Virus record (IMG/VR): IMGVR_UViG_3300002143_000172
Span: 1-64,000 of that record
Strand: one strand, 5' to 3'
From: a virus
Length of the DNA stretch: 64,000 nt
The position numbers and the translations under genes were made by a program. This document shows, piece after piece, positions 32,991 to 62,902 of this stretch. Positions within the stretch are counted from its first letter, which is position 1, and each line of letters starts with the position of its first letter. The notes below the pieces were generated by a model. The model was given only the letters and a program-made list of their open reading frames with translations. It had not been told where the DNA came from and made no database searches.

Positions 32991-33025
32991 TGGTGGAGGA
33001 GACAGGGATCGAACCGATATCTCCT
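32991..33025 (-). pseudogene. tRNA 3'-half remnant
   Basis: Minus-strand T arm (ATCGG, loop TTCGATC, CCTGT), acceptor strand CTCCTCC, A73 and CCA, but no 5' half attached. It could pair with the orphan 5' half at 33562-33597 (GGGGGTG) with one mismatch. Confidence 0.65.
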
Positions 33026-33536
33026 AAATGGTGGAGGTTAAGGGGATCGAACCCTTAACTCTGCCTTGCAAAGGCAGCGTGTTCCCATTAGCACTAAACC
33101 CCCATTTGTATTCAACTGCTTGCTCTATTAAAGGAGCAACTTCGTCTTTCCATTTGCTATGTACCATTTCGTGATGATTTGGACATAATGGTATTAAGTT
33201 CTGCGGATCGTTATTATCGTGATTCTCATCTATATGATGTATTGCTACAATCTTATCAAATCCGCAAATAACACATTCGTGTTTCCAATGCTGTAAAGCA
33301 ATAGTCTTATAATGCGTAGCATTATCATTCCACCACTCTTGTCTATTGTTAGCACAACTACGACTACAGAACTTTGCTCGTTCATATGTCTTAGTTTTTA
33401 TGCGTCCTTCAAATATAAACTCTGTACCACAGCGTTCACATTCTTTAGTATGTTTTGCAACAGGACCAAATCGTTTATCGTTCTTTTCCTGTTGTAGGAG
33501 TTTGTATTGTTCAGTGTTATATTTTCCGTTGTTCAT
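33024..33536 (-). CDS. HNH homing-type endonuclease, 170 aa
   Basis: Two N-terminal Cys pairs (CERCGTEF and CSRSCANN, about 33-61), then the HNH core HECVICG...IVAIHHIDENHDNN...LCPNHHEMVH (about 85-127) with catalytic His and ligand residues intact. The frame runs through the whole of tRNA-Ala and ends beyond it, so the last ~30 residues are translated tRNA sequence. A late-type motif GATAAATA lies 4 bp before ATG with no ribosome site. The flanking orphan tRNA halves suggest it invaded a tRNA gene. Confidence 0.85.
   Translation of the reverse strand: MNNGKYNTEQYKLLQQEKNDKRFGPVAKHTKECERCGTEFIFEGRIKTKTYERAKFCSRSCANNRQEWWNDNATHYKTIALQHWKHECVICGFDKIVAIHHIDENHDNNDPQNLIPLCPNHHEMVHSKWKDEVAPLIEQAVEYKWGFSANGNTLPLQGRVKGSIPLTSTI
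33029..33103 (-). tRNA. tRNA-Ala (UGC), copy 1
   Basis: Acceptor GGGGGTT/AACCTCC, T arm AAGGG/CCCTT, loop TTTGCAA, A73, encoded CCA. Lies wholly inside the 3' end of the HNH reading frame on the same strand. Confidence 0.9.
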
Positions 33537-34016: not shown

Positions 34017-34697
34017 ATGAATATCGATCACAATCCTTATCAATGCTACGCCAATCAAGAATTGAAATGGCTCCCAATGGATACGGAAAATTTGTATAAA
34101 CGAAATCTCAAAGTTAACTATTTTCTTCTTGAAAAATTTAATTGGCTAAATTCAAATTTTACTTATAAATTTAACAGCCAAGGATTTCGTTGCGATGAGT
34201 TTACTAACAGTCCTTCTATTGTTTTTTTAGGATGTAGTATAACAGTAGGCATTGGAATACCTGTAGAAACAACCTGGGCAAGTTTAGTATCTAATCAATT
34301 AAATCTTTCTTGTTATAACTTAGGTATAGGCGGCTCATCAAACAATACTGCATTTCGATTAGCACATATATGGTTAAAAAAAATTAAACCTAAAGTGGTT
34401 GTATTTTGTCAAACCTATCCAGAAAGATTAGAAGTGTTTAACGAAAATGGAATAATATCTAATATAGCATCGGATTGCGGTGAGTTTTATAATCACTGGT
34501 TGTCCAATGAAAACAACAGCGCATTAAACCAAATTAAAAACAGGTTAGCAATTCAACAGTTATGCAATTCTTTTGATATTAAATTTGTGCATACCAGTGT
34601 GCATAATTTTGAATTTATTGATCAAGCAAGAGACCTGGCACATCCAGGAATTACATCAAATCAAAAGTTTTCGAAGTTAGTGCTAGAACTGATATAG
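34017..34697 (+). CDS. SGNH/GDSL-type hydrolase-like protein
   Basis: Nucleophile block IVFLGCSITVGIGIP (about 69-83, GCS in place of GDS), a glycine/asparagine block NLGIGGSSNN (about 102-111) and a C-terminal DLAHPG (about 209-214) that supplies Asp/His. The fold hydrolyses esters, often deacetylating glycans. It is a lone rightward gene within the leftward tRNA array, transcribed from a perfect late promoter 5 bp before its ATG with no ribosome site. Confidence 0.75.
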   Translation: MNIDHNPYQCYANQELKWLPMDTENLYKRNLKVNYFLLEKFNWLNSNFTYKFNSQGFRCDEFTNSPSIVFLGCSITVGIGIPVETTWASLVSNQLNLSCYNLGIGGSSNNTAFRLAHIWLKKIKPKVVVFCQTYPERLEVFNENGIISNIASDCGEFYNHWLSNENNSALNQIKNRLAIQQLCNSFDIKFVHTSVHNFEFIDQARDLAHPGITSNQKFSKLVLELI

Positions 34698-34915
34698 TTA
34701 TAAAAGTGTTACTGCCACTTCCACCACAGAAGCCCAATAACTGAGTAGTTACCCTGTCCATAACATTTATTCTTATGGGATGGCGTTAGACCACACCCTA
34801 GACAGTTCTCGGTATTCCCTAAAGAGGAACCGTAAGGTCAAGTTCTAGTGTACCCCCTGGTCTCTCGTTACAGGGACGCTCTTTTATTTACGGCAAAGAG
34901 TAAACCGGGTTATTC
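34698..34915 (-). ncRNA. structured noncoding region downstream of tRNA-Thr(UGU)
   Basis: No gene. On the minus strand I see ACTCTTT/AAAGAG, CCCTG/CAGGG around TAACGAGAGAC, a long-range ACACTAG/CTAGGGTGT pairing enclosing GGTTCC/GGGAATACC, and CCATAA/TTATGG. Such consistent pairing suggests a ~200-nt RNA made as the 3' part of the tRNA-Thr transcript. Class unknown. Confidence 0.45.
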
Positions 34916-34989
34916 TGGTGCCCCTTGACAGAATCGAACTGCCATCAACGGATTACAAAACCATTGTATTACCATTATACTAAAGGGGC
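34916..34989 (-). tRNA. tRNA-Thr (UGU)
   Basis: Acceptor GCCCCTT/AAGGGGC, T arm GGCAG/CTGTC, loop TTTGTAA, A73, CCA encoded. Confidence 0.9.
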
Positions 34990-35017
34990 CTTAAGTTTTT
35001 TGTAACACTTCATTATT

Positions 35018-35257
35018 TCACTTATTTTTAGATCCTAATTTATATTCTAAATCTTTAGAAGCATCTAGTATTGTATCTTCGGTGCTCAATATATCTTGAT
35101 ACTCATTCTTACTTACACCTGTATTATCTTCTACCGGAGTATCTGGAATTAGTTTCTTCATATATGTTGGAACATGTTTCCCAAAGATACTTTCAAAATT
35201 ATTATCAAAAGTTTTCCCATCCACACTTTTTGGACGAGGCCTCGAACCTTTACTCAT
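35018..35257 (-). CDS. small conserved phage-type protein, 79 aa
   Basis: Basic start MSKGSRPRPKSVDGKTF, then an acidic, flexible C-terminal half. No domain. Its ATG overlaps the stop of the omega-subunit gene (ATGA). The N-terminal pattern is one I have seen in T4-like aquatic phages (from memory). Function unknown. Confidence 0.6.
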   Translation of the reverse strand: MSKGSRPRPKSVDGKTFDNNFESIFGKHVPTYMKKLIPDTPVEDNTGVSKNEYQDILSTEDTILDASKDLEYKLGSKNK

Positions 35258-35481
35258 CTAATCTTCCTTAAATGATCTCTACCAATTTTACCTTCTTCAA
35301 TTTCTTTTAAGGCCAATACTGCGGCGGTACTTCCGTTGTTGTTTTCTACCAACGGCATTGCACCACGCTTCAATTCTCGAACACGGGTTGATGCAATTAA
35401 TACCAAGTCAAATCTACTGCCCCCAACATTCTTAACACATTTTTCAATGTCGTTCATTGTTCGTTCTAGTTTTTTTGTCAT
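35254..35481 (-). CDS. rpoZ: RNA polymerase omega subunit-like protein
   Basis: 75 aa: GSRFDLVLIASTRVRELKRG (about 20-39) and VLALKEIEEGKIG (about 54-66) are the two conserved helices of bacterial RpoZ, which clamps the beta-prime C-terminus and helps assemble RNA polymerase. I chose ATG 35481 (AAGG 9 bp ahead); longer frames run into tRNA-Leu. A phage-encoded omega could replace or modify the host subunit during late transcription, fitting the late promoters here; inference. Confidence 0.85.
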   Translation of the reverse strand: MTKKLERTMNDIEKCVKNVGGSRFDLVLIASTRVRELKRGAMPLVENNNGSTAAVLALKEIEEGKIGRDHLRKIR

Positions 35482-35503
35482 AGTTGCCTTAGTTAAAAAA
35501 TTG

Positions 35504-35587
35504 TGGTGCCCCAGGCGAGACTCGAACTCGCAACCCTTTCGGGGACGGCTTCTAAGACCGCTGTGTAAACCATTCCACCACCGGGGC
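35504..35587 (-). tRNA. tRNA-Leu (UAG), class II
   Basis: Acceptor GCCCCGG/CTGGGGC, long variable arm, loop CTTAGAA, A73, CCA encoded. Confidence 0.92.
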
Positions 35588-35599
35588 ATAATAAAATAC

Positions 35600-35628
35600 A
35601 TTGTAGCAGGATATTTATATCTTGTCAA
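35600..35628 (-). promoter_or_regulatory. sigma-70-like promoter for tRNA-Leu(UAG)
   Basis: TTGACA (35628-35623), 17-bp spacer, TACAAT (35605-35600). Confidence 0.85.
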
Positions 35629-35645
35629 CCTGCTTAAAACAAAAT

Positions 35646-35722
35646 TGGTGGGCCAGATCGGATTCGAACCGATGATCAACGGCTTATGAGGCCGCTGCTT
35701 TAGGCCTCTAAGCTACTGGCCC
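35646..35722 (-). tRNA. tRNA with CAU anticodon (elongator Met or Ile2)
   Basis: Fully paired acceptor GGGCCAG/CTGGCCC, loop CTCATAA, A73, CCA encoded. Met versus lysidine-modified Ile cannot be decided by eye. Confidence 0.88.
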
Positions 35723-35732
35723 AATTTTAAAT

Positions 35733-35740
35733 ACTAAATA
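35733..35740 (+). promoter_or_regulatory. T4-type late promoter motif
   Basis: ACTAAATA, 5 bp before the ATG at 35746. Confidence 0.65.
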
Positions 35741-35745
35741 TTGTT

Positions 35746-36321
35746 ATGAACTTTAACATCTCTGTAGATACACAGTATGGCATAATGCTTAGTGGCGGTA
35801 TTGATAGTGCTATATTGTTCTATCTGTTAATTAAAGAGGAACCAAAAATAAGACTCCAACCGTTTACTATTCCCAAAGTTGACGGCGCATACTTATATGC
35901 TGATCCGCTCATTGATTATTTTAATAATAAATTTAACTTAACAATTCCACACACGATTAAAGTAGGTGATCCGACTTTACATCACACAAAACAGGGTCAA
36001 AGTGGATATACTGATATTCGAAAGTTTTATAAAAATATACAGATCGTATTCTGTGCTCTTAACGCAGTTCCTTTAGAATTACAAGACGGTCGTCATCCTA
36101 TAAGGCTGATGCACGGACCTACTAACCTTAAATTGCCATTTGTTAATATGTTCAAGGATCAAATTCTTCAAATTATGTATGATGAAGGGCAAACTGATCT
36201 TATTGATCTCACCCATTCGTGTACAGAAAGAACTGTGGGACGATGTAATCATTGTTGGCAATGCGGTGAACGCAGTTGGGCATTTAATAAACTAAACAAA
36301 GTTGATACCGGAACAAAATAA
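35746..36321 (+). CDS. QueC-like PP-loop ATPase
   Basis: PP-loop SGGIDSAILF (about 15-24) and the C-terminal zinc-type segment SCTERTVGRCNHCWQCGERSWAF (about 157-179), matching QueC (7-cyano-7-deazaguanine synthase), which converts 7-carboxy-7-deazaguanine and ammonia to preQ0. The middle is shorter and diverged (191 aa versus ~220-230), so another PP-loop reaction is possible. With folE in the window it hints at deazaguanine modification of phage DNA. Leaderless-type late promoter in front. Confidence 0.7.
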   Translation: MNFNISVDTQYGIMLSGGIDSAILFYLLIKEEPKIRLQPFTIPKVDGAYLYADPLIDYFNNKFNLTIPHTIKVGDPTLHHTKQGQSGYTDIRKFYKNIQIVFCALNAVPLELQDGRHPIRLMHGPTNLKLPFVNMFKDQILQIMYDEGQTDLIDLTHSCTERTVGRCNHCWQCGERSWAFNKLNKVDTGTK

Positions 36322-36323
36322 CA

Positions 36324-36397
36324 TGGTGCCCGGAGCCGGACTCGAACTTGTGATAAAGGCTTATCAAGCCTCCGTTATACCGTTTAACTACAGAGCT
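36324..36397 (-). pseudogene. chimeric tRNA-Ile (GAU)-like pseudogene
   Basis: The 5' two thirds is a tRNA-Ile with loop TTGATAA, but the T stem (ACAAG/CCGGC) and acceptor (AGCTCTG/TCCGGGC) do not pair. The last ~20 nt plus CCA differ only slightly from the 3' end of the adjacent tRNA-Leu(UAA), suggesting conversion or recombination between neighbours. Confidence 0.7.
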
Positions 36398-36409
36398 GTC
36401 TTACTAACT

Positions 36410-36708
36410 TGGTGCTCCGAGCCGGAATCGAACCGGCACGCCATTACAGCGAGGGATTTTCTTACCACTATAGTTTTCACTACCTTTGCAGTTTGGTGGT
36501 CTGGACTATACCTTCATCATAGCATTACTGCCTTAGATGCTCGCCGTCTAGTCTCTACACGTTCAAAGTAATTTCTTACTAAGCTTCGCTCGGTATTAGC
36601 ATGTTAAAGCCTTCACCGAATTTGACGAGTTCTACTCCCGGCATTTCCACCGGGGCACTCAAATTTTACTCTCAAGTCCCTTGTGTCTACCTATTTCACC
36701 ATCAGAGC
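36410..36708 (-). tRNA. tRNA-Leu (UAA) interrupted by a group I intron
   Basis: 5' exon 36708-36674 (35 nt: acceptor GCTCTGA, D arm, stem AGGGA, CTT) and 3' exon 36460-36410 (AAAATCCCT, variable arm CGC/GCG, T arm GCCGG/CCGGC, TCGGAGC, A73, CCA). Joined, they give a perfect class II tRNA-Leu with loop CTTAAAA. The interruption is after U34, the same site as in cyanobacterial and plastid tRNA-Leu(UAA). The first 18 nt overlap the end of the HNH gene upstream. Confidence 0.93.
36461..36673 (-). ncRNA. group I self-splicing intron, 213 nt, in tRNA-Leu(UAA)
   Basis: Minus strand. The 5' exon ends in U and the intron in G (omega-G, 36461). P7 elements GTAGAGACTA (36558-36549) and AAGGTATAGTCC (36514-36503) pair through GACTA/TAGTC. 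AAATTCGGTGAAGG (36623-36610) fits the P4 strand. P2-like CCCCGG/CCGGG hairpin near 36632-36655. The internal guide GAGTG pairs with exon GACTT, with U-G at the splice site. No internal ORF. It resembles the cyanobacterial/plastid trnL intron type (IC3). Confidence 0.93.
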
Positions 36709-37293
36709 AATTAATCTTTTCATTCTTTCGTAGTTGCCGCCTTTTGCAGCTAGTCCTACTTCTAATAATGCTTGTCGTATGTTACTACATTTTGCATATG
36801 CTGTCAATAGCTCTTGGTCAGTTACTTTAACTTTCCCCGAGTTGATATTTCTACCTCTCCATGTTGGAGTTAATGCATGACAGTTACAACATAATAGTTT
36901 AAGATTTTCCCTTGTATTATGTTTGTTATCACCGTCGACATGCTCTAATTCTAACGGTATAGGACTGGACTGCCACTCGGTCAATCCACACCCTTCACAT
37001 TGGTAACCTCGCTCTTGTATAAGAGCCGATTTGTGATTACCAATACCATCGTACTCAAATTTTGTATTGGAATAATTACCTTTATTCCAATTCATTTTAG
37101 TTTTGGTGTCCGCTGGCAAATTTGCATACCTGATTTTTGCAGGCAAACGATTACCTAACTCGTATACTGCTTTAGTTCTTTCTGAGTTAATTGCTTTAAG
37201 TACACTGCATCCTGCGGGTCTGGCGCAACAGCAATTTTTACCATTTTTTAAAACAAACTTAGATGCAGTGTTGCATCCGTAATCACATAACAT
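36691..37293 (-). CDS. HNH homing-type endonuclease, 200 aa
   Basis: N-terminal Cys-rich segment (CDYGC...CCCARPAGC, 3-28) and an HNH core CEGCGLTEW...LELEHVDGDNKHNTRENLKLLCCNCH (about 105-145) with the catalytic His in LEHVDGD. A C-terminal helical DNA-binding tail follows. Its stop lies 18 nt inside the intron-bearing tRNA-Leu, so the nuclease gene abuts the intron host gene and may mobilise it. AGGAG before ATG; ACTAAATA further upstream. Confidence 0.88.
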   Translation of the reverse strand: MLCDYGCNTASKFVLKNGKNCCCARPAGCSVLKAINSERTKAVYELGNRLPAKIRYANLPADTKTKMNWNKGNYSNTKFEYDGIGNHKSALIQERGYQCEGCGLTEWQSSPIPLELEHVDGDNKHNTRENLKLLCCNCHALTPTWRGRNINSGKVKVTDQELLTAYAKCSNIRQALLEVGLAAKGGNYERMKRLIALMVK

Positions 37294-37370
37294 AACATAC
37301 TCCTGTTATGTGTATTTAGTAGGTAGGCACAGAATGCTTAACTTAAACTACCAATTACTCTATAAAAACT

Positions 37371-37438
37371 TGGTACACCGTGCGGAATGCGTACCCGCCG
37401 TGAAAGGGTGATGTCCTAGGCCTCTAGACGAACGGGAC
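37371..37438 (-). pseudogene. decayed tRNA-Glu (UUC)
   Basis: The 5' part (GTCCCGT, D arm, loop CTTTCAC) is nearly identical to bacterial tRNA-Glu, but the gene is about 8 nt short; the T loop reads TACGCAT and the acceptor strands pair poorly (GTCCCGT/ACGGTGT). Probably non-functional; another UUC tRNA occurs at 42813. Confidence 0.7.
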
Positions 37439-37492
37439 AAAAATGTTACTTTTAATTTTTAAAGAGCGTGTTAATTTCTTAACTTATGCATT

Positions 37493-37521
37493 ATTATAGC
37501 ATACTACTGCAGGTGTGTCAA
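37493..37521 (-). promoter_or_regulatory. sigma-70-like promoter
   Basis: TTGACA (37521-37516), 17-bp spacer, TATAAT (37498-37493), facing the decayed tRNA-Glu and the HNH/tRNA-Leu genes; the -35 lies at the end of the oxygenase gene. Confidence 0.9.
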
Positions 37522-38195
37522 GCAGTTTTAACGCTTTGGGAAGGTAATATAAAGTTTCCCGCCTGTGCTTTTTCGATAACTTGCGAAAAATTCATCGATA
37601 AACATTTCAACCTTAGGAACACCCGCTGTTTATCATTGTTCCTTACACCGTGTATGGTATGACCGTTAAACATGCTTGGGTGATCTAGACTGTAATTATA
37701 ACTATAAATTAGATCTCTTTTTGGTATTACTGGATAACTTGTTGCCCGCTGCCAAACAGACCCCGGTGGCATCCTGTAAAAATCAATTGGACTTGCATCA
37801 CTATCGGGTAAGATCGGGAACATGATCCCACAATACATATGAAAGTCTATGTGAGGTACAAAATTATAACCTGGACCATAGATTAAGATATCTACATCGG
37901 CTCCCTGCAACGGTTGGTCAAAGTTGAATTGTTCCACTAATTTTTTTATCGGATCAAAATCTTTTACATGTTTACCCAATGTAAAATAGGTATCGATCGA
38001 ATCAAATAGTCCAGCTGAATCTTCCTTAAACCGTTTATTGTGCGTCATGTTGTTTGATGCGTGTTTATTGGAAAACTTATTCATTAGTTTGCCAAAACTG
38101 ACTTGGTATTGTTTTACACTTTCATACCAATCTTTTAACTCTTCTCGATCGTATGTTATTTCGTCAAACACTACATGATGATCGAATACTTGCAT
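37518..38195 (-). CDS. 2-oxoglutarate oxygenase-like protein, 225 aa
   Basis: HID in NFVPHIDFHMYCGIMFPIL (about 112-130) and a distal His...Arg in GHTIHGVRNNDKQRVFLRLK (about 180-199) give the HxD...H...R pattern of aspartyl hydroxylase-like enzymes. Substrate unknown. ATG lies 5 bp after ACTAAATA (38208-38201), with no ribosome site, so probably a leaderless late transcript inside the tRNA array. Confidence 0.7.
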   Translation of the reverse strand: MQVFDHHVVFDEITYDREELKDWYESVKQYQVSFGKLMNKFSNKHASNNMTHNKRFKEDSAGLFDSIDTYFTLGKHVKDFDPIKKLVEQFNFDQPLQGADVDILIYGPGYNFVPHIDFHMYCGIMFPILPDSDASPIDFYRMPPGSVWQRATSYPVIPKRDLIYSYNYSLDHPSMFNGHTIHGVRNNDKQRVFLRLKCLSMNFSQVIEKAQAGNFILPSQSVKTA

Positions 38196-38200
38196 GGAAT

Positions 38201-38208
38201 TATTTAGT
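38201..38208 (-). promoter_or_regulatory. T4-type late promoter motif
   Basis: ACTAAATA, 5 bp before the ATG at 38195. Confidence 0.65.
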
Positions 38209-38217
38209 AACCTAACT

Positions 38218-38291
38218 TGGTGCTCAAGAATAGAATCGAACTATTGATTGCTCCTTACCATGGAGCCGTTATTCCATTTAACTACAAGAGC
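38218..38291 (-). tRNA. tRNA-Thr (GGU)
   Basis: Loop ATGGTAA, perfect anticodon stem GCTCC/GGAGC, T arm AATAG/CTATT, CCA encoded. The acceptor (GCTCTTG/CTTGAGC) has two adjacent U-U mismatches. Confidence 0.78.
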
Positions 38292-38298
38292 AAAAATA

Positions 38299-38390
38299 TG
38301 GTGGAGAGTGAGAGATTCGAACTCTCGGACCCACTTGCGTGGATCGACAGGTTAGCAACCTGCTGCCTTAGACCACTCGGCCAACTCTCC
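38299..38390 (-). tRNA. tRNA-Ser (GCU), class II
   Basis: Acceptor GGAGAGT/ACTCTCC, long variable arm, loop TTGCTAA, CCA encoded. Discriminator reads A, where G is usual for tRNA-Ser. Confidence 0.9.
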
Positions 38391-38404
38391 TAAATCTATT
38401 CGGT

Positions 38405-38497
38405 ACGACCGGTAGGGTTCGAACCTACAAGGGCTATGTCTAAGACGGTGCCCCATCCTGCTCAACGCAGAGGTCTGCCAATTCCACTCACGGTCGC
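38405..38497 (-). tRNA. class II tRNA-like gene, anticodon unclear
   Basis: Acceptor GCGACCG/CGGTCGT and T arm GTAGG/CCTAC are good, but the middle has no canonical anticodon arm. Candidates are a CTGC/GCAG hairpin around GTTGA and a second GTCTTAGAC hairpin within the long variable region (GGGC/GCCC). The 3' end reads CCG instead of CCA. It has its own strong promoter. Confidence 0.55.
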
Positions 38498-38503
38498 AAG
38501 TAT

Positions 38504-38532
38504 ATTATATACTTATCCGTGGTACTTGTCAA
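38504..38532 (-). promoter_or_regulatory. sigma-70-like promoter
   Basis: TTGACA (38532-38527), 17-bp spacer, TATAAT (38509-38504), before the class II tRNA-like gene. Confidence 0.9.
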
Positions 38533-38541
38533 CTAAAATAT

Positions 38542-38616
38542 TGGTCCGCCCACCAGGAATCGAACCTGGAATCACACTTTAGAAGAATGTTGTTATATCC
38601 ATTTAACTATGGGCAG
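38542..38616 (-). tRNA. tRNA-Arg (UCU)
   Basis: Acceptor CTGCCCA/TGGGCGG, T arm CCAGG/CCTGG, loop CTTCTAA, A73, CCA encoded. Confidence 0.92.
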
Positions 38617-38625
38617 TGAGTCTCT

Positions 38626-38654
38626 AGTATAACATACTATTTTGTTTATGTCAA
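38626..38654 (-). promoter_or_regulatory. sigma-70-like promoter for tRNA-Arg(UCU)
   Basis: TTGACA (38654-38649), 17-bp spacer, TATACT (38631-38626). Confidence 0.88.
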
Positions 38655-38711
38655 TTCTGCTCATATAAATAGCTTTATGAATGTTATTTTTTGGAACGGC
38701 GGAATTAAAAT

Positions 38712-38785
38712 TGGCAGGGGCACTAGGGATCGAACCTAGACTAACAGAGTCAAAGTCTGTTGTGCTACCATTACACAATGCCCCA
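38712..38785 (-). tRNA. tRNA-Gln (UUG)
   Basis: Acceptor TGGGGCA/TGCCCCT with a weak first pair as usual for Gln, loop CTTTGAC, G73, CCA encoded. Confidence 0.92.
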
Positions 38786-38894
38786 ACAAAAAGGTTTTCA
38801 AGAGCCCAACTATCCTCCTGGGAGGACTCATTGGATTGTCTCGACAAGGCAAGTTTATACAACCGTCATCGCCGTCTGCGGTGTCATACAGCCA

Positions 38895-38940
38895 ACCAAA
38901 ACTGTACTAGGCTTGCGGGACTCGAACCTTGCGTCTATCT
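38895..38940 (-). pseudogene. possible tRNA 3'-end remnant
   Basis: A GGTTCGAGTCCCGC T-loop-like segment between tRNA-Gln and the next tRNA, without a pairable stem, CCA or anticodon arm. The 160-nt spacer around it holds no gene. Confidence 0.35.
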
Positions 38941-38947
38941 TGAAATT

Positions 38948-39022
38948 TGGTAGTAATGGAAAGAGTCGAACTTTCACAGCGCACCGTATGAAGGTGTTGC
39001 ACTACCATTATGCTACATTACC
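38948..39022 (-). tRNA. tRNA with CAU anticodon (Met or Ile2), third CAU copy
   Basis: Acceptor GGTAATG/CATTACT (G1-U72), loop TTCATAC, stem ACACC/GGTGC, A73, CCA encoded. Confidence 0.85.
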
Positions 39023-39097
39023 ATATGTAAACACACTCAGAGGAGGCGTTCTCCGGCGCCGGAGTACCAAGCTGATCGTAAATGTGTTTGCATATGG
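39021..39097. repeat. inverted repeat joining two tRNA genes
   Basis: CCATATGTAAACACA (39021-39035) and TGTGTTTGCATATGG (39083-39097) form a 15-bp stem with one wobble. Inside is a perfect palindrome CTCCGGCGCCGGAG (39051-39064). The stem includes the CCA end of tRNA-Lys and the first bases of the CAU tRNA, so it could present both ends for RNase processing. Confidence 0.7.
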
Positions 39098-39168
39098 TAG
39101 GACCACCCGGACTCGAACCGGGATAGATCGGTTAAAAGCCGACTATTCTACCTTTGAATTATGATCCC
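39095..39168 (-). tRNA. tRNA-Lys (UUU)
   Basis: Acceptor GGGATCA/TGGTCCT, T arm CCGGG-type (CCCGG), loop CTTTTAA, A73, CCA encoded. Confidence 0.9.
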
Positions 39169-39172
39169 GTAT

Positions 39173-39247
39173 TGGTCCATGCTCTGAGAATCGAACTCAG
39201 TTCCTCCGGTTAAGAGCCGGTTACTTCGCCACTAAAGTTTAGCATGG
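39173..39247 (-). tRNA. tRNA-Lys (CUU)
   Basis: Acceptor CCATGCT/AGCATGG, T arm CTGAG/CTCAG, loop CTCTTAA, A73, CCA encoded. Confidence 0.92.
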
Positions 39248-39329
39248 GTTGTGTATTAAATTGATTTAATGTGCCAACCCTAGACCAATACGGGATCTAG
39301 AGCGACACTATCGTTTACCTCGTTTCATG

Positions 39330-39458
39330 TCAATCTCCTTTTTTGATATTACGATTTTGTGCTTGGCGTTCTGATTTCCAGAACACTCGTTTCCAATCTT
39401 TCAAATGCTTCCACCATTGTGGAGGCGCTGTCAAGTTACCCTTTTTGACATTTGCCAT
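39330..39458 (-). CDS. small basic Trp-rich protein, 42 aa
   Basis: Begins MANVKKGNLTAPPQWWKHL and continues with a basic helix. AAGGA lies about 8 bp before ATG, and codon use is normal, so it looks real. Such Lys/Trp-rich mini-proteins are common between T4-like phage genes. Possibly nucleic-acid binding; function unknown. Confidence 0.6.
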   Translation of the reverse strand: MANVKKGNLTAPPQWWKHLKDWKRVFWKSERQAQNRNIKKGD

Positions 39459-41447: not shown

Positions 41448-41524
41448 TGGTACCTCCGGCGGGAGTCGAACCCCCAACCACCTGCTTCTAAGGCAAGCCG
41501 CACTACCAATTAGCGTACGAAGGC
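41448..41524 (-). tRNA. class I tRNA with UAG (Leu) anticodon
   Basis: Acceptor GCCTTCG/CGGAGGT, anticodon stem CTTGC/GCAGG, loop CTTAGAA, A73, CCA encoded. The variable loop has only 5 nt, unlike the long arm of bacterial leucine tRNAs; identity therefore uncertain. Confidence 0.8.
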
Positions 41525-41529
41525 ATATA

Positions 41530-41606
41530 TGGTACCCCGTGTCTGATTCGAACAGACATCCAACTCCTTTTGAGAGAATTCGCACTACCAATTAGCGTAA
41601 CGGGGC
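41530..41606 (-). tRNA. class I tRNA with CAA (Leu) anticodon
   Basis: Acceptor GCCCCGT/ACGGGGT, T arm GTCTG/CAGAC, loop CTCAAAA, stem ATTCT/GGAGT, A73, CCA encoded. Short variable loop; its D arm is identical to that of the preceding UAG tRNA. Confidence 0.78.
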
Positions 41607-53428: not shown

Positions 53429-55480
53429 TTACTTGCTCGTTGCCCTAAAAATTCCGTCCCAATCAGCAGTAAGATTGGCATGACGCATTTCGTTAATTCG
53501 TTCAACCCATAAATCATAGTAGTGGTCCATGTAACCATTGAATTGACCACGCAGTTGGCTAACCGCTAATAAAGCAACATCCCAATTTTGTGTCCTGTAT
53601 GCATAAAGCATAGTATTATGTTGTTCTCTTGCTCGCTCCCACATATCCATATTAAATTCTGGATTATAGAATACTGTGTAAATGGTAACGCCGTCCTTCT
53701 TACCTTTAACAGCGATACAGTCTAGTTCTATAGTAAAGTATTCTCCATCAAGTCTTTCTGCTGTTGTAGGTCCGAGGACAATTAACACACCGTAATTTTT
53801 ACTCTGTCCTTCTAGGCGTGATGAAAGATTAACGGCATCTCCGAGACAGGTGTAATCAAATCTCTGTTCTCCTCCCATATTACCAACTACAACAACACCA
53901 GTATTACAACCAATACCAAGCCCAAAAGGAGGAACCCCTTCTTTACCAATTTCTTCATTAAATATCTTAACTGCATCTAACATCTCCAGTGCGGCTTTAA
54001 CACTATCTTTTGCATGTTTATGGTTGTCTAATGGTGCATTCCAAAAGCTCATAGTAGCATCGCCGATATACTTGTCTAGCGTTCCTTCATTTTCAAGAAT
54101 AACTTTTGTTACTACAGTCATATAACGATTCATGATTTTAGTAAGGCCTTGCACATCGGCGCCATAGTGCTCGCTGATACTAGTAAATCCACGGACATCA
54201 CTAAATTGAATTGTTAAGTCTTGACTATCGCCACCTAGTCTTAGTAAACTAGGATCCTTAACAAGTTTAGCAACCAAGTCCGGACTCAAATAACTACCGA
54301 ATTGTTTTTTAATCTGTTGCTTTTGTAAGAACTCACTGACGAACTTGACCATGTAGGCATGCAGAGCGACCAAAACTATGCCAACGGCAAAAGCAGTACT
54401 GTCGAATAGGTAAAGGTAATGGCTGTAAGCAAACATGCTACCGTAGATAACACCGCCAACCACAACAACCGTTGCCACAATACCTACATAAGTCCACCTC
54501 ATTAAAAATATTAAAAGAATACCTGCAAACAACATAGAATAAGTTTCTAACTCATCTGCATATCCGGGTCGCTGTATGCTAGTTCCGGAAATCATTGTTC
54601 CCAACAAACTAGCCTGTAGATCCTGGGGCCATATTTCTCCACGGCTAGTAGCAACGGGTTGTACTAGCCCGGCGGCGCTTAATCCTACGATAACAATCTC
54701 ACCGTTAAAATCTTTGGGCAATTTTGCCAGGCTGTGTTGTTTAGGTTGTTGGCTCCAATCGATCCATATTCGACTTAGTGAATCTACTGTGATTTTGCTT
54801 AACTTAGGAACACGGAGTGCTTCGACTCCCTCTTCACCTATTTTAACCTGTATCTTAGTGTCTCCCACTGCAATACGCAATGCATCTAATGACATAGCAG
54901 GATGTATAGTATCTTCGCTCATAATCAGCAAAGGCATACGGCGAACTACACCGTCAATTTCTGGAAAGGTATTTACGATTCCCTTGCCCGCGGCTTTTTC
55001 TTGTAGCATAGGAAGGTTAGCAATGATACCGGGATACTCAACCATTGTGCCGCCGGGTGCGTTCCCAATAACCTGCACTGCTGTTCCAAAGGTTTTATTT
55101 TTACCTTTGACGCTGGCAACTTCGGGTAATACTACAGGATATTTTTCTAGTACTTGGGCCAGTTGATTATCTTGACCAAACCTGTCTTTCTCAGGCATGA
55201 GGATATTAAGGACAACGAGTCCAGCATTTCTATCATACAGGTCTTTAATAATATTAGCATAGGTGCCCCTTGGAAAAGGAAATTGACCATACTTGTCTAA
55301 CGCATCTTCGTCAATATTAACCGTATGTACAGCGATATCTTTAACAGGCTGGCTAGTTACCAATTGATCAAAATAGCGTAGTCTTACAGATTCTATAAAA
55401 CTAGGATCTGTCCATCTTAAACATACCATTATGGCTAAGGTGATTAGTGCTGTCCACGGATTCAGTAATAGTTTTTTCAT
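53429..55480 (-). CDS. CHASE2-domain class III adenylate/guanylate cyclase
   Basis: 683 aa. N-terminal membrane segment, then a CHASE2 sensor (about 30-300, with FPFPRGTYANIIKDL and VIVGLSAAG), three adjacent transmembrane helices (about 305-380), and a class III cyclase domain starting LTIQFSDVRGFTSISEHYG (about 425) with YIGDATMSFWNAP (about 478) and a later FDYTCLGDAVNLSSRLEG. Both catalytic metal aspartates appear present. It would make cAMP or cGMP in response to a periplasmic signal. Start set at ATG 55480, 7 bp after ACTAAATA. Rare in phages. Confidence 0.92.
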   Translation of the reverse strand: MKKLLLNPWTALITLAIMVCLRWTDPSFIESVRLRYFDQLVTSQPVKDIAVHTVNIDEDALDKYGQFPFPRGTYANIIKDLYDRNAGLVVLNILMPEKDRFGQDNQLAQVLEKYPVVLPEVASVKGKNKTFGTAVQVIGNAPGGTMVEYPGIIANLPMLQEKAAGKGIVNTFPEIDGVVRRMPLLIMSEDTIHPAMSLDALRIAVGDTKIQVKIGEEGVEALRVPKLSKITVDSLSRIWIDWSQQPKQHSLAKLPKDFNGEIVIVGLSAAGLVQPVATSRGEIWPQDLQASLLGTMISGTSIQRPGYADELETYSMLFAGILLIFLMRWTYVGIVATVVVVGGVIYGSMFAYSHYLYLFDSTAFAVGIVLVALHAYMVKFVSEFLQKQQIKKQFGSYLSPDLVAKLVKDPSLLRLGGDSQDLTIQFSDVRGFTSISEHYGADVQGLTKIMNRYMTVVTKVILENEGTLDKYIGDATMSFWNAPLDNHKHAKDSVKAALEMLDAVKIFNEEIGKEGVPPFGLGIGCNTGVVVVGNMGGEQRFDYTCLGDAVNLSSRLEGQSKNYGVLIVLGPTTAERLDGEYFTIELDCIAVKGKKDGVTIYTVFYNPEFNMDMWERAREQHNTMLYAYRTQNWDVALLAVSQLRGQFNGYMDHYYDLWVERINEMRHANLTADWDGIFRATSK

Positions 55481-55487
55481 AGTCAAA

Positions 55488-55495
55488 TATTTAGT
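55488..55495 (-). promoter_or_regulatory. T4-type late promoter motif
   Basis: ACTAAATA, 7 bp before the ATG at 55480. Confidence 0.6.
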
Positions 55496-55500
55496 CAAGA

Positions 55501-55522
55501 TAATAGGGCCGAAGCCCTATCG
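55501..55522 (-). terminator. UUCG hairpin downstream of pstS
   Basis: Minus-strand GATAGGGC/GCCCTATT with TTCG loop, 11 bp after the pstS stop. The U tract is weak, so terminator or 3'-end protector. Confidence 0.6.
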
Positions 55523-55532
55523 ATTGTTAATG

Positions 55533-56522
55533 TTACTTAACCTGTTGTGCCCAATCTTTGCGGATCTGCGTTTTAACATGTTCGGGTAAAGGAACATAGT
55601 CTAGCTCAATTGCCGATTTGTTACCTTTAGTAAATGCCCAGTCAAAGAACTTAACTACTTCTTTAGTGTTAGCATTGCCTTCTTTAAATATCAGAATAAA
55701 TGTAGCCGCTGTTATTGGCCAGCCACCTTTGTTGTTTAAGTTAACAGCCATACCTGGTGTTTTCCAATCTGCTGACTTTGCGGCTTCGGCAAAAGTTGTA
55801 TCATCTGGTTCTACTGGTTTGCCTTTCTTATCTAGCATACGAACATAGTTCATCTTAGCCTGTTTAACATACGCATACTCTACATAACCGATCGTACCCT
55901 GTAATTGCTGTGTAAATGCCGCAACCCCTGCATTGCCTTTGCCAGCTGTGGTCTGTTGTGATTTCCAACTAACTGCCTTACCGGCGCCTATTTCATTTTT
56001 AAATTCTGTGCTAACCTGTGATAGATAGTCTGTAAAAACCGCTGTTGTTCCGCTACCATCTGCACGAACAACACGAATTATTGATTGGTCAGGAAGCGAA
56101 AGTTTTGGATTCAGCTTCTTGATCGCAGGATCGTTCCAATTGTTAATCTTACCCTGGAAAATATCTGCTAGTGTTTTTCCATCTAGAACTAATTGCCCAA
56201 TTTCAATACCTTTGATATTAATAACAGGAACCACTCCGCCGATCGCGGTAGGGAATTGATTATAGCCTTTGACTTTTATTTCTTCTGCGGTCATTGGATC
56301 GTCTGTTGCACCAAAATCGAGAGTTTTAGCCTCCATTTGTTTAATGCCGCCGGCTGAACCAATTGCTTGGTAATTTATTTTAATGCCGGTTTCTCTGTGG
56401 TATTCACCTGCCCATTTACTATAGATAGGTGCGGCAAATGTTGACCCGCCGCCGTTGATTACTGTCTGTGCCTGTGTGGACATTGCCACCATTGATAATA
56501 GAATAGCAAATAATTTTTTCAC
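55533..56522 (-). CDS. pstS: periplasmic phosphate-binding protein PstS
   Basis: Signal peptide (MKKLFAILLSMVAMSTQA), then INGGGSTFAAPIYSKW (about 22-37), NYQAIGSAGGIKQM (about 50-63) and DFGATDDPM, the phosphate-site loops of PstS. Length 329 is normal. It captures phosphate for the host Pst transporter; known in cyanophages and pelagiphages. Start codon is GTG with AAAGGAG 8 bp ahead. A 14-bp palindrome and TTTAAATA motif lie in the leader, suggesting control at the transcription start. Confidence 0.93.
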   Translation of the reverse strand: MKKLFAILLSMVAMSTQAQTVINGGGSTFAAPIYSKWAGEYHRETGIKINYQAIGSAGGIKQMEAKTLDFGATDDPMTAEEIKVKGYNQFPTAIGGVVPVINIKGIEIGQLVLDGKTLADIFQGKINNWNDPAIKKLNPKLSLPDQSIIRVVRADGSGTTAVFTDYLSQVSTEFKNEIGAGKAVSWKSQQTTAGKGNAGVAAFTQQLQGTIGYVEYAYVKQAKMNYVRMLDKKGKPVEPDDTTFAEAAKSADWKTPGMAVNLNNKGGWPITAATFILIFKEGNANTKEVVKFFDWAFTKGNKSAIELDYVPLPEHVKTQIRKDWAQQVK

Positions 56523-56550
56523 TGTAAATCTCCTTTAGTTAGTGAATATG

Positions 56551-56564
56551 TGTGCGATCGCACA
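56551..56564. promoter_or_regulatory. 14-bp palindrome at the pstS transcription start, possible operator
   Basis: Perfect palindrome TGTGCGATCGCACA just downstream of TTTAAATA (56576-56569, minus). It contains the octamer GCGATCGC. It could be a repressor site or, in RNA, a small hairpin. Confidence 0.55.
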
Positions 56565-56606
56565 TTACTATTTAAACACAAAGAGATTACAATATTATTA
56601 CAATAA

Positions 56607-56640
56607 TCAAGAAAAAAGCCCATACCGGGCTTTTTCTTTT
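56607..56640 (-). terminator. rho-independent terminator of the curli-like operon
   Basis: AAAAAGCCC/GGGCTTTTT stem with a 5-nt loop followed by T-rich sequence on the minus strand, 14 bp after the curlin-repeat stop; symmetric enough to work in both directions. Confidence 0.85.
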
Positions 56641-56653
56641 TTGCTATATGTAA

Positions 56654-57805
56654 TTACTGTTGACCTTGCGTCACGCTAACTGAACATCCGCTCAATGTGG
56701 CACATTGTTGAGTGATATTGATATTTTGTGCTGAAGAACCTTGTTGTACTACTCCGACAGTACTGGCACCACCAACATTGGTTAGATTGATAGTGGCTTT
56801 ATGACTACCTGCATCCCTTTGATTTACAGTGACACTATGGCCGTTGCCACTTAGTGCAAGGTCAAGGTAACTGCCGTTTCCTTGTTGACTGATATCAAAC
56901 ACATTGCTGTTACCATTTACTACTCCAAAGAATATCTTTTCGCCGTTGCCACTTTGTTTTAATGACCCTTGATTACTGTTGCCTACGATATCAATTAACG
57001 CAAAGTGTCCAGAAGAACTAGCACCGTCATTACTTTGTTTAGCGACTACGGTATTGGTATTTCCCGAGACATTCAATCCTAGATAGTGACCGCCGCTTTC
57101 GCTACCATCCTGTAGCCCTGTACTAGGACTCCGTGCTTGCCATACACTGATCGTATTAGAGTCCCCGGCTATGCTAAATTCAATTTGATTTTTCCCGCCC
57201 CCATCACCTTGTTTGATATTAATATTATTACTGCTACCGTTAAGAACAGCATAGTTGGCTCCCAACCCGCTTATCCGATTATAAAAACCTGTTTGCTCTA
57301 TTGTTGTACTGTTATTAGCACTACCTGTCTTAACATCTAAGTTAATTGAATTATTATTGAATAAGTTACCTACATTGGTTTTTGCACTATTGACCACTAT
57401 TGTCTGTGGATTAGTGATATTACTATCATATGATACAGAGCCACCGCCCACTATTACTGGCGGTGGAGGTGGACTGGCAAAACTATAATATCTTCCTGAG
57501 TCCGGCCAAGCTACATTGCCACTACTATCCCTTGTATAAAGTAATAAGGTATCACTGTCGGGTTGTGTGGCATGGTCAATTACATAGCTAGTGCCAGCAC
57601 ATTCTGCGCTAGTACAAGTTGCTGTCCATCCGGATAGATTGTTAAGTCCTTGGGCTACTAATGAATCAAACTCATTGGGATTATTTCCGCGATAGACAAA
57701 TATATAATCACTACCCTGTCCGCTAACATTCATAGCAGGGCCAACCGAAACAGCGCGGACATTGCTAGATATCAGTAAGAGTAGGATTAGTAAAAACTTT
57801 TTCAT
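56654..57805 (-). CDS. curlin-repeat (CsgA/CsgB-like) amyloid protein, 383 aa
   Basis: Signal peptide (KKFLLILLLLISSNVRA, 2-18), a ~110-residue N-terminal domain with paired Cys (CTSAEC), then about ten ~22-residue repeats with the curlin N-x-x-x-I/V-x-Q pattern (NNINIKQGD, NTVVAKQS, NQGSLKQSG, NVFDISQQG, NINITQQC). Curlin repeats stack as beta-strand turns of an extracellular amyloid. Last gene of the curli-like operon, before a terminator. The extra N-terminal domain is not seen in CsgA. Confidence 0.85.
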   Translation of the reverse strand: MKKFLLILLLLISSNVRAVSVGPAMNVSGQGSDYIFVYRGNNPNEFDSLVAQGLNNLSGWTATCTSAECAGTSYVIDHATQPDSDTLLLYTRDSSGNVAWPDSGRYYSFASPPPPPVIVGGGSVSYDSNITNPQTIVVNSAKTNVGNLFNNNSINLDVKTGSANNSTTIEQTGFYNRISGLGANYAVLNGSSNNINIKQGDGGGKNQIEFSIAGDSNTISVWQARSPSTGLQDGSESGGHYLGLNVSGNTNTVVAKQSNDGASSSGHFALIDIVGNSNQGSLKQSGNGEKIFFGVVNGNSNVFDISQQGNGSYLDLALSGNGHSVTVNQRDAGSHKATINLTNVGGASTVGVVQQGSSAQNINITQQCATLSGCSVSVTQGQQ

Positions 57806-58932
57806 CTGTAGCTCTGATTAATAACAATCGTTCCGTATGATTTACTGCTTTGGCTGTTAAAGTTGTAAGCATCAGTCTGTCGATCTTGCGTCACTATAAC
57901 CAATGCTTGTGAGTCCATGGATAGTTTTATGTCTACGAAATTACCGGCATTCTGTGTCGTGCTGGTATAACCCCATCCTATTTGCAGAGTCTGGCTGGCA
58001 TCTTTCCAGACTTTATATACATGGTCATTTCCAGTCGATAGATCAGTCACTGCTATATCTAATGATTTAGTATCGATCATCGCCTTGTTTCGATCTCCAT
58101 CTTCTTGTTCTTGCCTTGCCCGCCCCTGTCTTTGTTTATCTTGCTGATCTTTTGAAGCCTGTTGTTCTTCTTTACCGTGATCTTTATCGTCTTTATCATC
58201 TTTGCCGTCTTTATTGCCCTGTCGATCCTTAGTCTTATCCACGGCTGCTCTTGCTGCCGCTACGATGTTCTTACCACCTTCTGTTTTAGGTTGATTTAAT
58301 AATAAGTTTGTACCTATGGCCGTACCTGTTAAACTAACAACTATTGGAGGACTAGGTGCCGCGCCCAGTGTTTCGACCATAGTAGCTTGGAAAGGTTTAT
58401 CCATGGTAACTGTGCCATTACCACTATTAACATCGATCCTACCACTACTACATTTTCCACCCATTGGATCGCAGCCTGCATTTGGCATCAATATGACCAT
58501 AGATGATCCTATTTCATTCACTGCCATAACAAAGTCTGTGCCTCGTACAGCAATGCTAGCCGTAGGTGTTTTAATGTTTACTGACTTGGGATCGTTGTGT
58601 GCTATCTTGCCAGATGCATATCTGACTGTGCCTGCGGCTGCTTTGAGTCCTAACTTACCTGCACCGCTTTTAGGATCGTATACAAAATCGTCTATAACTA
58701 GTGCGCTATGCTCTGTAACTTTAACACTGGTATCATCTTTAAAAATAATAGTAAGACTACCATTTTTAGTTTCTATTTTATCATTCATCTCTATCTCTGC
58801 GCCTTTAGCTACAGAGATAGTTTCCTTACCTCGTTTGATTTGTGCTGATCCTGAAAGTTCAGTCACAGATCCTATACCTGCGTAACATTCTCCCGCAAGA
58901 AATAGTCCCAAGAGAAAGAGAGCAAGTCTCAT
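57802..58932 (-). CDS. FecR-domain protein of the curli-like cluster
   Basis: Signal peptide (MRLALFLLGLFLAGECYA), FecR-type beta domain (about 20-150: VTELSGSAQIKRGKE, IETKNGSLTIIF, IKTPTASIAVRGTDF), a highly charged Lys/Asp/Gln linker (about 235-285) and a C-terminal region with curlin-like spaced repeats (ALVIVTQDR, TIVINQSYR). It may anchor or nucleate fibre subunits at the surface. ATGA overlap with the curlin gene. Confidence 0.8.
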   Translation of the reverse strand: MRLALFLLGLFLAGECYAGIGSVTELSGSAQIKRGKETISVAKGAEIEMNDKIETKNGSLTIIFKDDTSVKVTEHSALVIDDFVYDPKSGAGKLGLKAAAGTVRYASGKIAHNDPKSVNIKTPTASIAVRGTDFVMAVNEIGSSMVILMPNAGCDPMGGKCSSGRIDVNSGNGTVTMDKPFQATMVETLGAAPSPPIVVSLTGTAIGTNLLLNQPKTEGGKNIVAAARAAVDKTKDRQGNKDGKDDKDDKDHGKEEQQASKDQQDKQRQGRARQEQEDGDRNKAMIDTKSLDIAVTDLSTGNDHVYKVWKDASQTLQIGWGYTSTTQNAGNFVDIKLSMDSQALVIVTQDRQTDAYNFNSQSSKSYGTIVINQSYR

Positions 58933-58941
58933 TTTGCTCCT

Positions 58942-59751
58942 TTAGTTCTTTTGCAGTATATTAAATGTACCGCTAGTTGTTCCCGAAGTCTTGATGTTAA
59001 GGTAATTGTTAACACTTCCACTTTGCTCAATGTTCATTGTAGAACCAGTAGTTGATGCCATATCTAAAGCAATATGACTACCGCCGACCGCTGTGCTCTT
59101 TTGAGAAATATTAAATGTGTTACTATCACCAGTTAGACTAATAACCTGACTATGGTCATTACCAAGTTGATCAATAACAAAAGTGTTGGTATTGCCAGTT
59201 ACATCAATATGGCTAAACAAGTTGTCACCTGTACCCCTGTACTGAATGGAGTTCGTGTTGCCGGTAACTCTCCAGTTTATATCTGCTGCCTTACATCCTG
59301 TAAGTGCGGTGCTTCCATCACTAGCTGTTCCGTATCCGCAAGCGGCATCGACAATGTTGCTATCACCTAGTTGACGAATGGTAACTGTAGCACCTTGACT
59401 AGAACCAGATGTTGCATTAGTAACTTCTAAGTTAAGTGTATTGTTGTCACCACTCTGTATAGTGATAATACTTTGATCGATACCCCTCAAACGAACTGCT
59501 CGGCTGGCATCACCTGCGGTGTTACCCGACCCTTCTTGTGTCATATTGACATTGGGATTGGCACCACTTTGATCTAAATAGATCTTGTTGGTTGTTCCAC
59601 TTAATGCCGCTGTGGCTGCTGAAGTGGCTGTTCCGGGAGCATTCATCGATGGAATGGTCGGAGATGTCGGTGCAGTTACCGTAGTCTGTGCCATACTAAC
59701 CATAGGTAGTAAGCAGGTTGCTATTAGTAATGCTATTAGTGTTTTTTTCAT
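58942..59751 (-). CDS. curlin-repeat (CsgA/CsgB-like) amyloid protein, 269 aa
   Basis: Signal peptide (KKTLIALLIATCLLPMVSMA), Thr/Pro/Ala-rich spacer (about 22-50), then about eight curlin-type repeats (IYLDQSGANPNVNMTQEG, SIITIQSGDNN, NTFVIDQLGND, NTFNISQKS, STMNIEQSG, TFNILQKN). Resembles CsgA/B but less regular, so likely a fibre or adhesin subunit. AAGGA precedes ATG. Confidence 0.85.
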   Translation of the reverse strand: MKKTLIALLIATCLLPMVSMAQTTVTAPTSPTIPSMNAPGTATSAATAALSGTTNKIYLDQSGANPNVNMTQEGSGNTAGDASRAVRLRGIDQSIITIQSGDNNTLNLEVTNATSGSSQGATVTIRQLGDSNIVDAACGYGTASDGSTALTGCKAADINWRVTGNTNSIQYRGTGDNLFSHIDVTGNTNTFVIDQLGNDHSQVISLTGDSNTFNISQKSTAVGGSHIALDMASTTGSTMNIEQSGSVNNYLNIKTSGTTSGTFNILQKN

Positions 59752-59803
59752 AATTTTGGTCCTTTAAGGTTGGTGTTAGTGTAAATTACCTTCCTATGTT
59801 ATT

Positions 59804-60658
59804 TTACTTAATTGGGTCCTTTTCAAACTTTAATCCTAAGTCCGATTTAGTTTCCGTAGGAACCTCCTTGTACTTCCACAGTCCTTGTTGCTCACCCTTC
59901 TTTAACATCTCGGTTATCCCAGTTTCAATAGCTGAACGCAGAGCATAGTTACCGGGTTCGTTAAATGTTTGGCTTGAATCAAATTCAAATGCTTCTGTTG
60001 CTTTGTTAAAAAATTTCAACGCAGTTATACCATCACTGGTGCTGAGTAGGTTCTTTTCTATCGTAACCGTGGTTAATATCTCTCCGCTGGTTACACTGAC
60101 TAATCGTAAACTAATCACAACAAGATCTTGTGTGTATTGCGTAAATGGGCCTATGCCTAAAAATCTGGCACCGGTTCCCCCTGTCAGAGTATTTGAATTA
60201 TAGTCAATTATACCACCTTCAATAATAACACCAGCTAGGGTTAATGGGGGCAACATCTTTGCCTTGTCGCCATCATAAATCTCGCGTGTCTGCTTGATCA
60301 TCTGTCTTTCTTTTAACAGGTTATCTAGCCCCACACGCTCAACAACGGTAAACCATTTTCCATTACTTGCTTCCTTCAAACTCTTGATCATGTATGCTTC
60401 AGCGCCTTGTGTAACTGCGGTGCTGAACAAACTCAATGTAGAGCTAGGTTTTCTCTGTCCTGTTAAATCTTTAAATCCATAAACTGCTACTGTGATAGGA
60501 GGACCTGCTGGTTCTGGAATATCTTTAAAGCCTTTGTTGATCATTCCAGAAACAGTGGCTTCGCCTTCGATACCAATATCACTCAACGGTCGTATAGTTG
60601 AACAACCTACAAGTGCTGTTAGTGCCAGCGTTAAAAGTGTATTTTTAAATAAGTTCAT
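59804..60658 (-). CDS. csgG: curli export pore CsgG
   Basis: Lipoprotein signal peptide with lipobox LVGCS (Cys near 19), then VAVYGFKDLTGQRKP (about 52-66) and AEAYMIKSLKEASNGKWFTVVERVGLDNLLKERQMI (central block, about 93-128), GGIIDYNSNT (about 150-159) and a ARFLGIGPFTQYTQD segment: the CsgG family order. CsgG forms the outer-membrane nonamer that secretes curlin. Length 284 near the typical 277. Lies 9 bp after csgF. Confidence 0.93.
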   Translation of the reverse strand: MNLFKNTLLTLALTALVGCSTIRPLSDIGIEGEATVSGMINKGFKDIPEPAGPPITVAVYGFKDLTGQRKPSSTLSLFSTAVTQGAEAYMIKSLKEASNGKWFTVVERVGLDNLLKERQMIKQTREIYDGDKAKMLPPLTLAGVIIEGGIIDYNSNTLTGGTGARFLGIGPFTQYTQDLVVISLRLVSVTSGEILTTVTIEKNLLSTSDGITALKFFNKATEAFEFDSSQTFNEPGNYALRSAIETGITEMLKKGEQQGLWKYKEVPTETKSDLGLKFEKDPIK

Positions 60659-62894: not shown

Positions 62895-62902
62895 TATTTA
62901 GC
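62895..62902 (-). promoter_or_regulatory. T4-type late promoter motif
   Basis: GCTAAATA, 6 bp before the ATG at 62888; overlaps the stop of the bilin reductase. Confidence 0.6.

Follow-up and report, generated by a model that had tools for sequence, protein, structure and literature searches.

The tRNA-Leu(UAA) gene (trnL) of a phage tRNA array is interrupted by a group I intron and overlaps the 3' end of a free-standing HNH endonuclease gene, and the three elements together probably form a collaborative-homing cassette, as judged from their sequences. The proposed cassette lies in the window, the 64,000-nt stretch of DNA analyzed here, which is part of a 159,170-base IMG/VR virus record. The ribozyme type and the insertion site are known, whereas the phage tRNA gene setting and the recurrent HNH-trnL cassette appear to be new. 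According to a 2014 review, all phage introns known at that time were located in protein genes, despite the many tRNA genes of phages (PMC3984707). One jumbo-phage paper describes predicted intronic sequences in tRNAs, which are not called group I (PMC13037316). In the open-access published papers searched, nothing since that review describes a group I intron in a tRNA gene of a phage. The features of the cassette are as follows.

36674..36708, minus strand: 5' exon of trnL(UAA), 35 nt, ending in U33-U34 (joined-exon tRNA call)
36461..36673, minus strand: group I intron of trnL(UAA), 213 nt, last base G (omega-G) (RF00028 and covariation)
36410..36460, minus strand: 3' exon of trnL(UAA), 51 nt including CCA (joined-exon tRNA call)
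36549..36553, minus strand: 5' strand of P7, GACUA, 100% paired in 30 sequences
36504..36508, minus strand: 3' strand of P7, UAGUC, 100% paired in 30 sequences
36691..37293, minus strand: free-standing HNH endonuclease gene, 200 aa (open reading frame, PHROG match and invariant residues)
36691..36708, minus strand: 18 bp shared by the 3' end of the HNH gene and the 5' end of the tRNA (similar abutment in relatives with an upstream HNH)
36409..37335, minus strand: homology island containing HNH, trnL and intron, the proposed mobile cassette (blastn against 18 loci)

Intron-bearing tRNA gene and ribozyme fold

Joining of 36674-36708 to 36410-36460 gives an 86-nt tRNA-Leu(taa) in ARAGORN, which with default settings missed the unspliced gene on the window. 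The first-pass annotation had given the intron and exon coordinates exactly to the base. Its insertion point after U34, its 213-nt insert with a terminal omega-G and its placement of the gene in a phage tRNA array are likewise supported, as is its claim that the HNH gene ends inside the tRNA, the stop codon TAG lying at 36693-36691 within the 5' exon. The same annotation called the joined exons a perfect class II tRNA-Leu; the 86-nt tRNA-Leu(taa) stands, but "perfect" is slightly generous, since one pair of the acceptor stem is G-U. The phage nature of the record rests on its IMG/VR class, a tail-spike match, ribonucleotide reductase, DNA ligase and the tRNA array. The terminase profiles PF03237 and PF17289 did not match the record, and a gp23 search of the record gave a weak match only, below the cut-off.

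The Rfam model RF00028 (Intron_gpI), proposed as a check in the first-pass annotation, matches positions 36480-36683 on the minus strand with 50.2 bits, just above the cut-off of 50; the E value is 9e-10 over the window and 8.5e-12 over a 601-base stretch. The fold was examined in an alignment of 30 divergent phage homologues, one per cluster at approximately 86% identity, and the counted structure comprises 37 pairs in P2, P3, P4, P5, P7, P8 and two P9 helices. Across these introns 94.0% of the cells are paired, the P3/P7 pseudoknot included; the structure was drawn on the row of the window, which favours this percentage but does not account for the compensatory changes (both partners vary in 24 pairs, in 242 cells altogether). 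When the partners were slid by 1-3 columns, just 27-40% of the cells were paired, and shuffles were also far lower. The P3-P8 domain with the P7/P3 pseudoknot and P4-P5 are thus present and supported by covariation. The P7 (GACTA/TAGTC), P4 and guide elements named in the first-pass annotation were recovered at the places given above for P7, where one pair covaries between A-U and U-A, and within the covarying fold for P4. Exon ACUU is paired with the internal guide GAGU, and a U-G wobble marks the 5' splice site; the GAG part of the guide is invariant. Single-sequence folding is weakly better than that of shuffles (z -1.9), as expected because the ribozyme is pseudoknotted.

On the evidence of this fold the insert is a group I intron, likely of subgroup IC3 from the resemblance of its core, and the phage tRNA-Leu precursor is predicted to be self-splicing. 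An artefact (a pseudogene or a chance match) might be suspected from an Rfam score barely above threshold, but it is refuted by the covariation, the clean joining of the exons and more than 100 homologues, and its probability is negligible.

Distribution of the intron among phages

A phage-derived intron pattern was used to scan IMG/VR and matched at least 119 viral contigs, for most of which IMG/VR membership is the sole evidence of viral status. The copy set is composed of these contigs, the window and three deposited records. Splicing in silico to tRNA-Leu(UAA) succeeded for 113 of the 123 viral copies examined, and most of the remaining 10 are interrupted by the contig end. The intron lengths of the copies examined form two groups, one of about 191-297 nt and the other of about 640-1090 nt. 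The three deposited records, the cultured Agrobacterium phage Atu_ph07 and the huge-phage records LR756501 and LR756511, contain introns of 278, 205 and 700 nt, respectively, the last with an HNH gene inside. No tRNA feature is annotated in the stretch of Atu_ph07, the genome paper of which does not mention introns, and the introns of both huge-phage records are unannotated. None of the three introns reaches the Rfam cut-off, which may be the reason for the missing annotation. Introns in tRNA-Leu genes occur widely among viral contigs and have gone without annotation in phage genomes already deposited, and since Atu_ph07 is cultured, the question of splicing is open to experiment.

That phages carry and spread this type of trnL(UAA) group I intron is strongly suggested by the copies that splice in silico and by the HNH-trnL cassettes, which recur in different tRNA neighbourhoods; the earlier idea of the phage as a vehicle for the spread of the intron gains from both. 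Many of the viral intron-bearing trnL genes are only 73-78 nt long once spliced. Two tRNA-Leu genes (UAG and CAA) at 41448-41606 of the window (minus strand) have 77 nt each, which leaves no room for a long variable arm.

HNH gene and probable homing cassette

The HNH protein matches PHROG 14736 with E = 4e-27, and its Pfam HNH match is below the cut-off (17.7 vs 21.4 bits). Residues C99, C102, H118, N130, C135, C138 and H139 are invariant in nine aligned homologues, and a C-terminal conserved region extends over approximately residues 153-195. The invariant residues and the PHROG match indicate the HNH motif and the zinc-binding cysteines of a putative homing endonuclease. A second HNH-like open reading frame of the window (33024-33536, minus strand), without a Pfam match, runs through tRNA-Ala (33029-33103) and also ends on a tRNA.

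A first protein search, in which no tRNA context was used, returned 16 relatives, and 14 loci were examined. The HNH gene is located directly before trnL(UAA) in all 14, with an intron in 13 and an intact intronless trnL in L262; identities range from 51 to 100%, some of the loci are partial or repeated, L250, with a 100% identical HNH, may represent almost the same phage, and L255-L258 have one common HNH sequence. A widened search, with repeated proteins removed, gave 77 distinct HNH genes. Fourteen of these precede an intron-bearing trnL(UAA), at least 16 an intronless trnL(UAA) and 10 another intronless tRNA-Leu, three are inside a trnL intron and three face a tRNA-Leu on the opposite strand; 21 have no assigned neighbour class, and the rest are located by other tRNAs. 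The intronless same-strand neighbours are Leu in 26 of 35 cases and other tRNAs in nine, against a background of 17% Leu among the tRNAs in the loci (p = 2e-13, a binomial value that treats related phages as independent, for loci fetched by HNH similarity).

Seen from the intron, a related HNH gene is present inside 30 of 38 long viral trnL introns and directly upstream of the intron-bearing trnL in six viral loci including the window. A related HNH gene immediately follows each of 16 short trnL introns, in most cases on the other strand, with its start approximately 39-50 bases past the 3' splice site (L011, L014, L023, L028, L066, L069, L078, L086, L102, L108, L117 and others). The long introns of L057, L067, L027, L118 and L090 contain open reading frames outside the main HNH family, several of which show different HNH-like motifs by eye.

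Positions 34400-39400 of the window were compared by blastn with 18 HNH-trnL loci. One main block is common to otherwise dissimilar phages; it begins shortly ahead of the HNH gene and runs to the 3' end of trnL; the other matches are short and mostly represent other tRNAs at different places. Among the 12 intron-bearing loci compared, 11 have an island that ends no more than 7 bases from 36410; in the intronless L280 and L282 the island stops exactly at 36674, the exon/intron border. In L260 and L263 the sequence from the C-terminal part of the HNH through the tRNA is 91-93% identical and the rest of the HNH is divergent or unmatched; in L260 the middle of the HNH differs, with the C-terminal part, exons and intron 93% identical. 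This pattern fits repeated exchange centred on trnL. The islands fit joint transfer of nuclease and intron but do not prove it.

Next to the island, a degenerate tRNA-like stretch (36327-36396, minus strand) scores 27.0 bits against an Rfam cut-off of 29, and over its last 27-34 bases it matches the 3' ends of trnL genes from other phages at 86-94%; it looks as if it were the scar of a tRNA exchange. A QueC-like gene (35746-36321, plus strand) adjoins trnL, and a homologue is located near the intronless trnL of L262. This queuosine-like neighbour, used as a query, returned one near-identical contig and nothing more.

Collaborative homing has been described for cyanophage psbA/F-CphI, T3-like phages and ICP1 terL (PMC10448857). 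At those loci, as in the window, a free-standing nuclease gene lies by an intron-bearing gene (PMC10448857), and intronless counterparts of the gene exist for the window type. The window differs in that the putative target is a tRNA gene, the nuclease gene overlaps this target and the whole tRNA appears to travel. The group I ribozyme in the anticodon loop would remove itself from the precursor to yield a normal tRNA-Leu. The upstream HNH protein, the last codons of which are also the first tRNA bases, is most likely a homing endonuclease that would cut the intronless tRNA-Leu genes of co-infecting phages, and repair from the carrier phage would then copy the intron along with both tRNA exons and the HNH gene. 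Cutting of trnL by the HNH, the position of the cut and co-conversion are predictions from sequence.

A different role for the nuclease is suggested by SegB of T4/T6, which cuts tRNA genes, co-localizes with tRNAs and amplifies a tRNA-Tyr/segB unit (PMC13096335). The 3' end of segB has microhomology to the 5' end of the tRNA, and SegB has no isotype preference (PMC13096335). Like the HNH of the window, SegB is a free-standing nuclease beside phage tRNAs with a gene 3' end similar to a tRNA 5' end (PMC13096335), whereas it is a GIY-YIG enzyme and is not tied to an intron. On this precedent, the HNH could be a SegB-like nuclease through which tRNA genes are exchanged or amplified, for example against tRNA-targeting defences, with the intron as a passenger, and many HNH relatives do abut an intronless tRNA-Leu. 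The strong Leu bias of the HNH set and the related HNH genes inside the same intron argue against this reading, which is considered somewhat unlikely.

The linkage of HNH and trnL might also result from gene overlap alone, around a real but immobile intron in tRNA arrays that are shuffled in blocks. Recombination between the two genes would damage both, so that the 18-bp overlap makes their separation costly, and the tRNA arrays of these phages are heavily rearranged. However, HNH genes that are close relatives of one another lie against trnL with the intron as well as without it, related HNH genes are also found inside the intron or downstream of it, and the divergent HNH middle of L260 beside its well-conserved C-terminal part, exons and intron looks like the outcome of repeated trnL-centred exchange. 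An immobile intron is regarded as unlikely.

Several points weaken the preferred homing reading, among them the Pfam match below its cut-off and the relatedness of the phages behind the binomial value. No related HNH gene is present within 2.5 kb of 53 of the 113 resolved viral introns, and the intronless trnL beside the HNH mostly retains the CTT/AAA junction, so that avoidance of self-cutting is not accounted for. A wider proposal has two parts: the unit of approximately 0.93 kb (HNH gene, overlapping complete tRNA-Leu gene and group I intron) would move from one phage tRNA array to another as a single homing cassette, and extant phages would display together the successive stages in which a mobile intron forms (HNH by intronless trnL, HNH by intron-bearing trnL, HNH in the intron, and intron alone). 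The chances of both parts being correct are judged to be even. The phage tRNA-Leu introns offer a natural series in which the joining of a stand-alone homing nuclease with an intron can be followed, as well as a candidate route for tRNA introns into new genomes.

Cellular relatives of the intron

Bacterial trnL(UAA) group I introns (alphaproteobacterial and others) occupy the same site after U34 and contain the core motifs GGTGTAGAGACT and TAGTCCAG. The introns of bacterial tRNA genes are 202-246 nt long, small enough to be without an open reading frame, and are located in cellular chromosomal genes, whereas the window type belongs to the tRNA arrays of phages and frequently has an HNH gene within it or next to it. 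A similar ribozyme core has been found in the capsid region of Pelagibacter phage HTVC120P and in a crAss-like helicase region; those introns interrupt protein genes, whereas that of the window interrupts a tRNA gene.

By BLAST, the nearest introns to that of the window are phage introns (85%), followed by bacterial trnL introns (best 76% identity), and the closest cellular introns are mostly alphaproteobacterial. The Azoarcus tRNA-Ile and Anabaena trnL introns, included as references in one BLAST set, were not among the matches listed, and none of the conclusions draws on them. A pattern scan of bacterial genomes detected the same intron type, among the matches listed, in trnL of mainly alphaproteobacterial genomes and in different tRNA genes from several phyla.

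The first-pass annotation had placed the intron at the cyanobacterial/plastid position and proposed a tree with cyanobacterial and plastid introns. The cyanobacterial/plastid trnL(UAA) intron does have the same host gene, the same position after U34 and a small ribozyme, and capture from a cyanobacterial host, within the ancestral cyanobacterial/plastid trnL lineage, would explain this likeness. Cyanobacterial trnL introns were collected with a strict pattern that had matches in 31 of 194 genomes. A quick tree of the introns was set aside, constrained trees having outscored the free tree. In a careful tree of 136 columns, which is poorly resolved with unsettled bootstrap values and includes cyanobacterial but not plastid introns, the 14 cyanobacterial introns form a separate 100/100 clade with no phage intron inside. 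Their P7 region and 3' end also differ from those of the window. On the same short tree, the AU test does not reject a grouping of the window with cyanobacteria (p = 0.22), nor do the tests reject monophyly of the phage introns. A cyanobacterial-type core pattern matched one viral contig, which was already in the intron set. The separate cyanobacterial clade, this single match and the mostly alphaproteobacterial BLAST matches make cyanobacterial capture highly unlikely. The tie to the cyanobacterial lineage thus comes down to the common insertion site and is unsupported rather than disproved, and the direction of transfer between phages and bacteria cannot be told from the short tree.

Several bacterial contigs of Omnitrophota and candidate phyla (L131, L158, L183, L191, L229 and L240) contain introns of this type in other tRNA genes; the 3' exon begins with CATAACC and the host is probably a tRNA with anticodon CAU or a neighbour of it. 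Among the other genes of the window, a ferredoxin-dependent bilin reductase (PF05996) is encoded in this phage record at 62898-63572 (minus strand), and CHASE2-cyclase, solute-binding, FecR-domain and CsgG-like proteins are encoded close together at 53429-60658 (minus strand).
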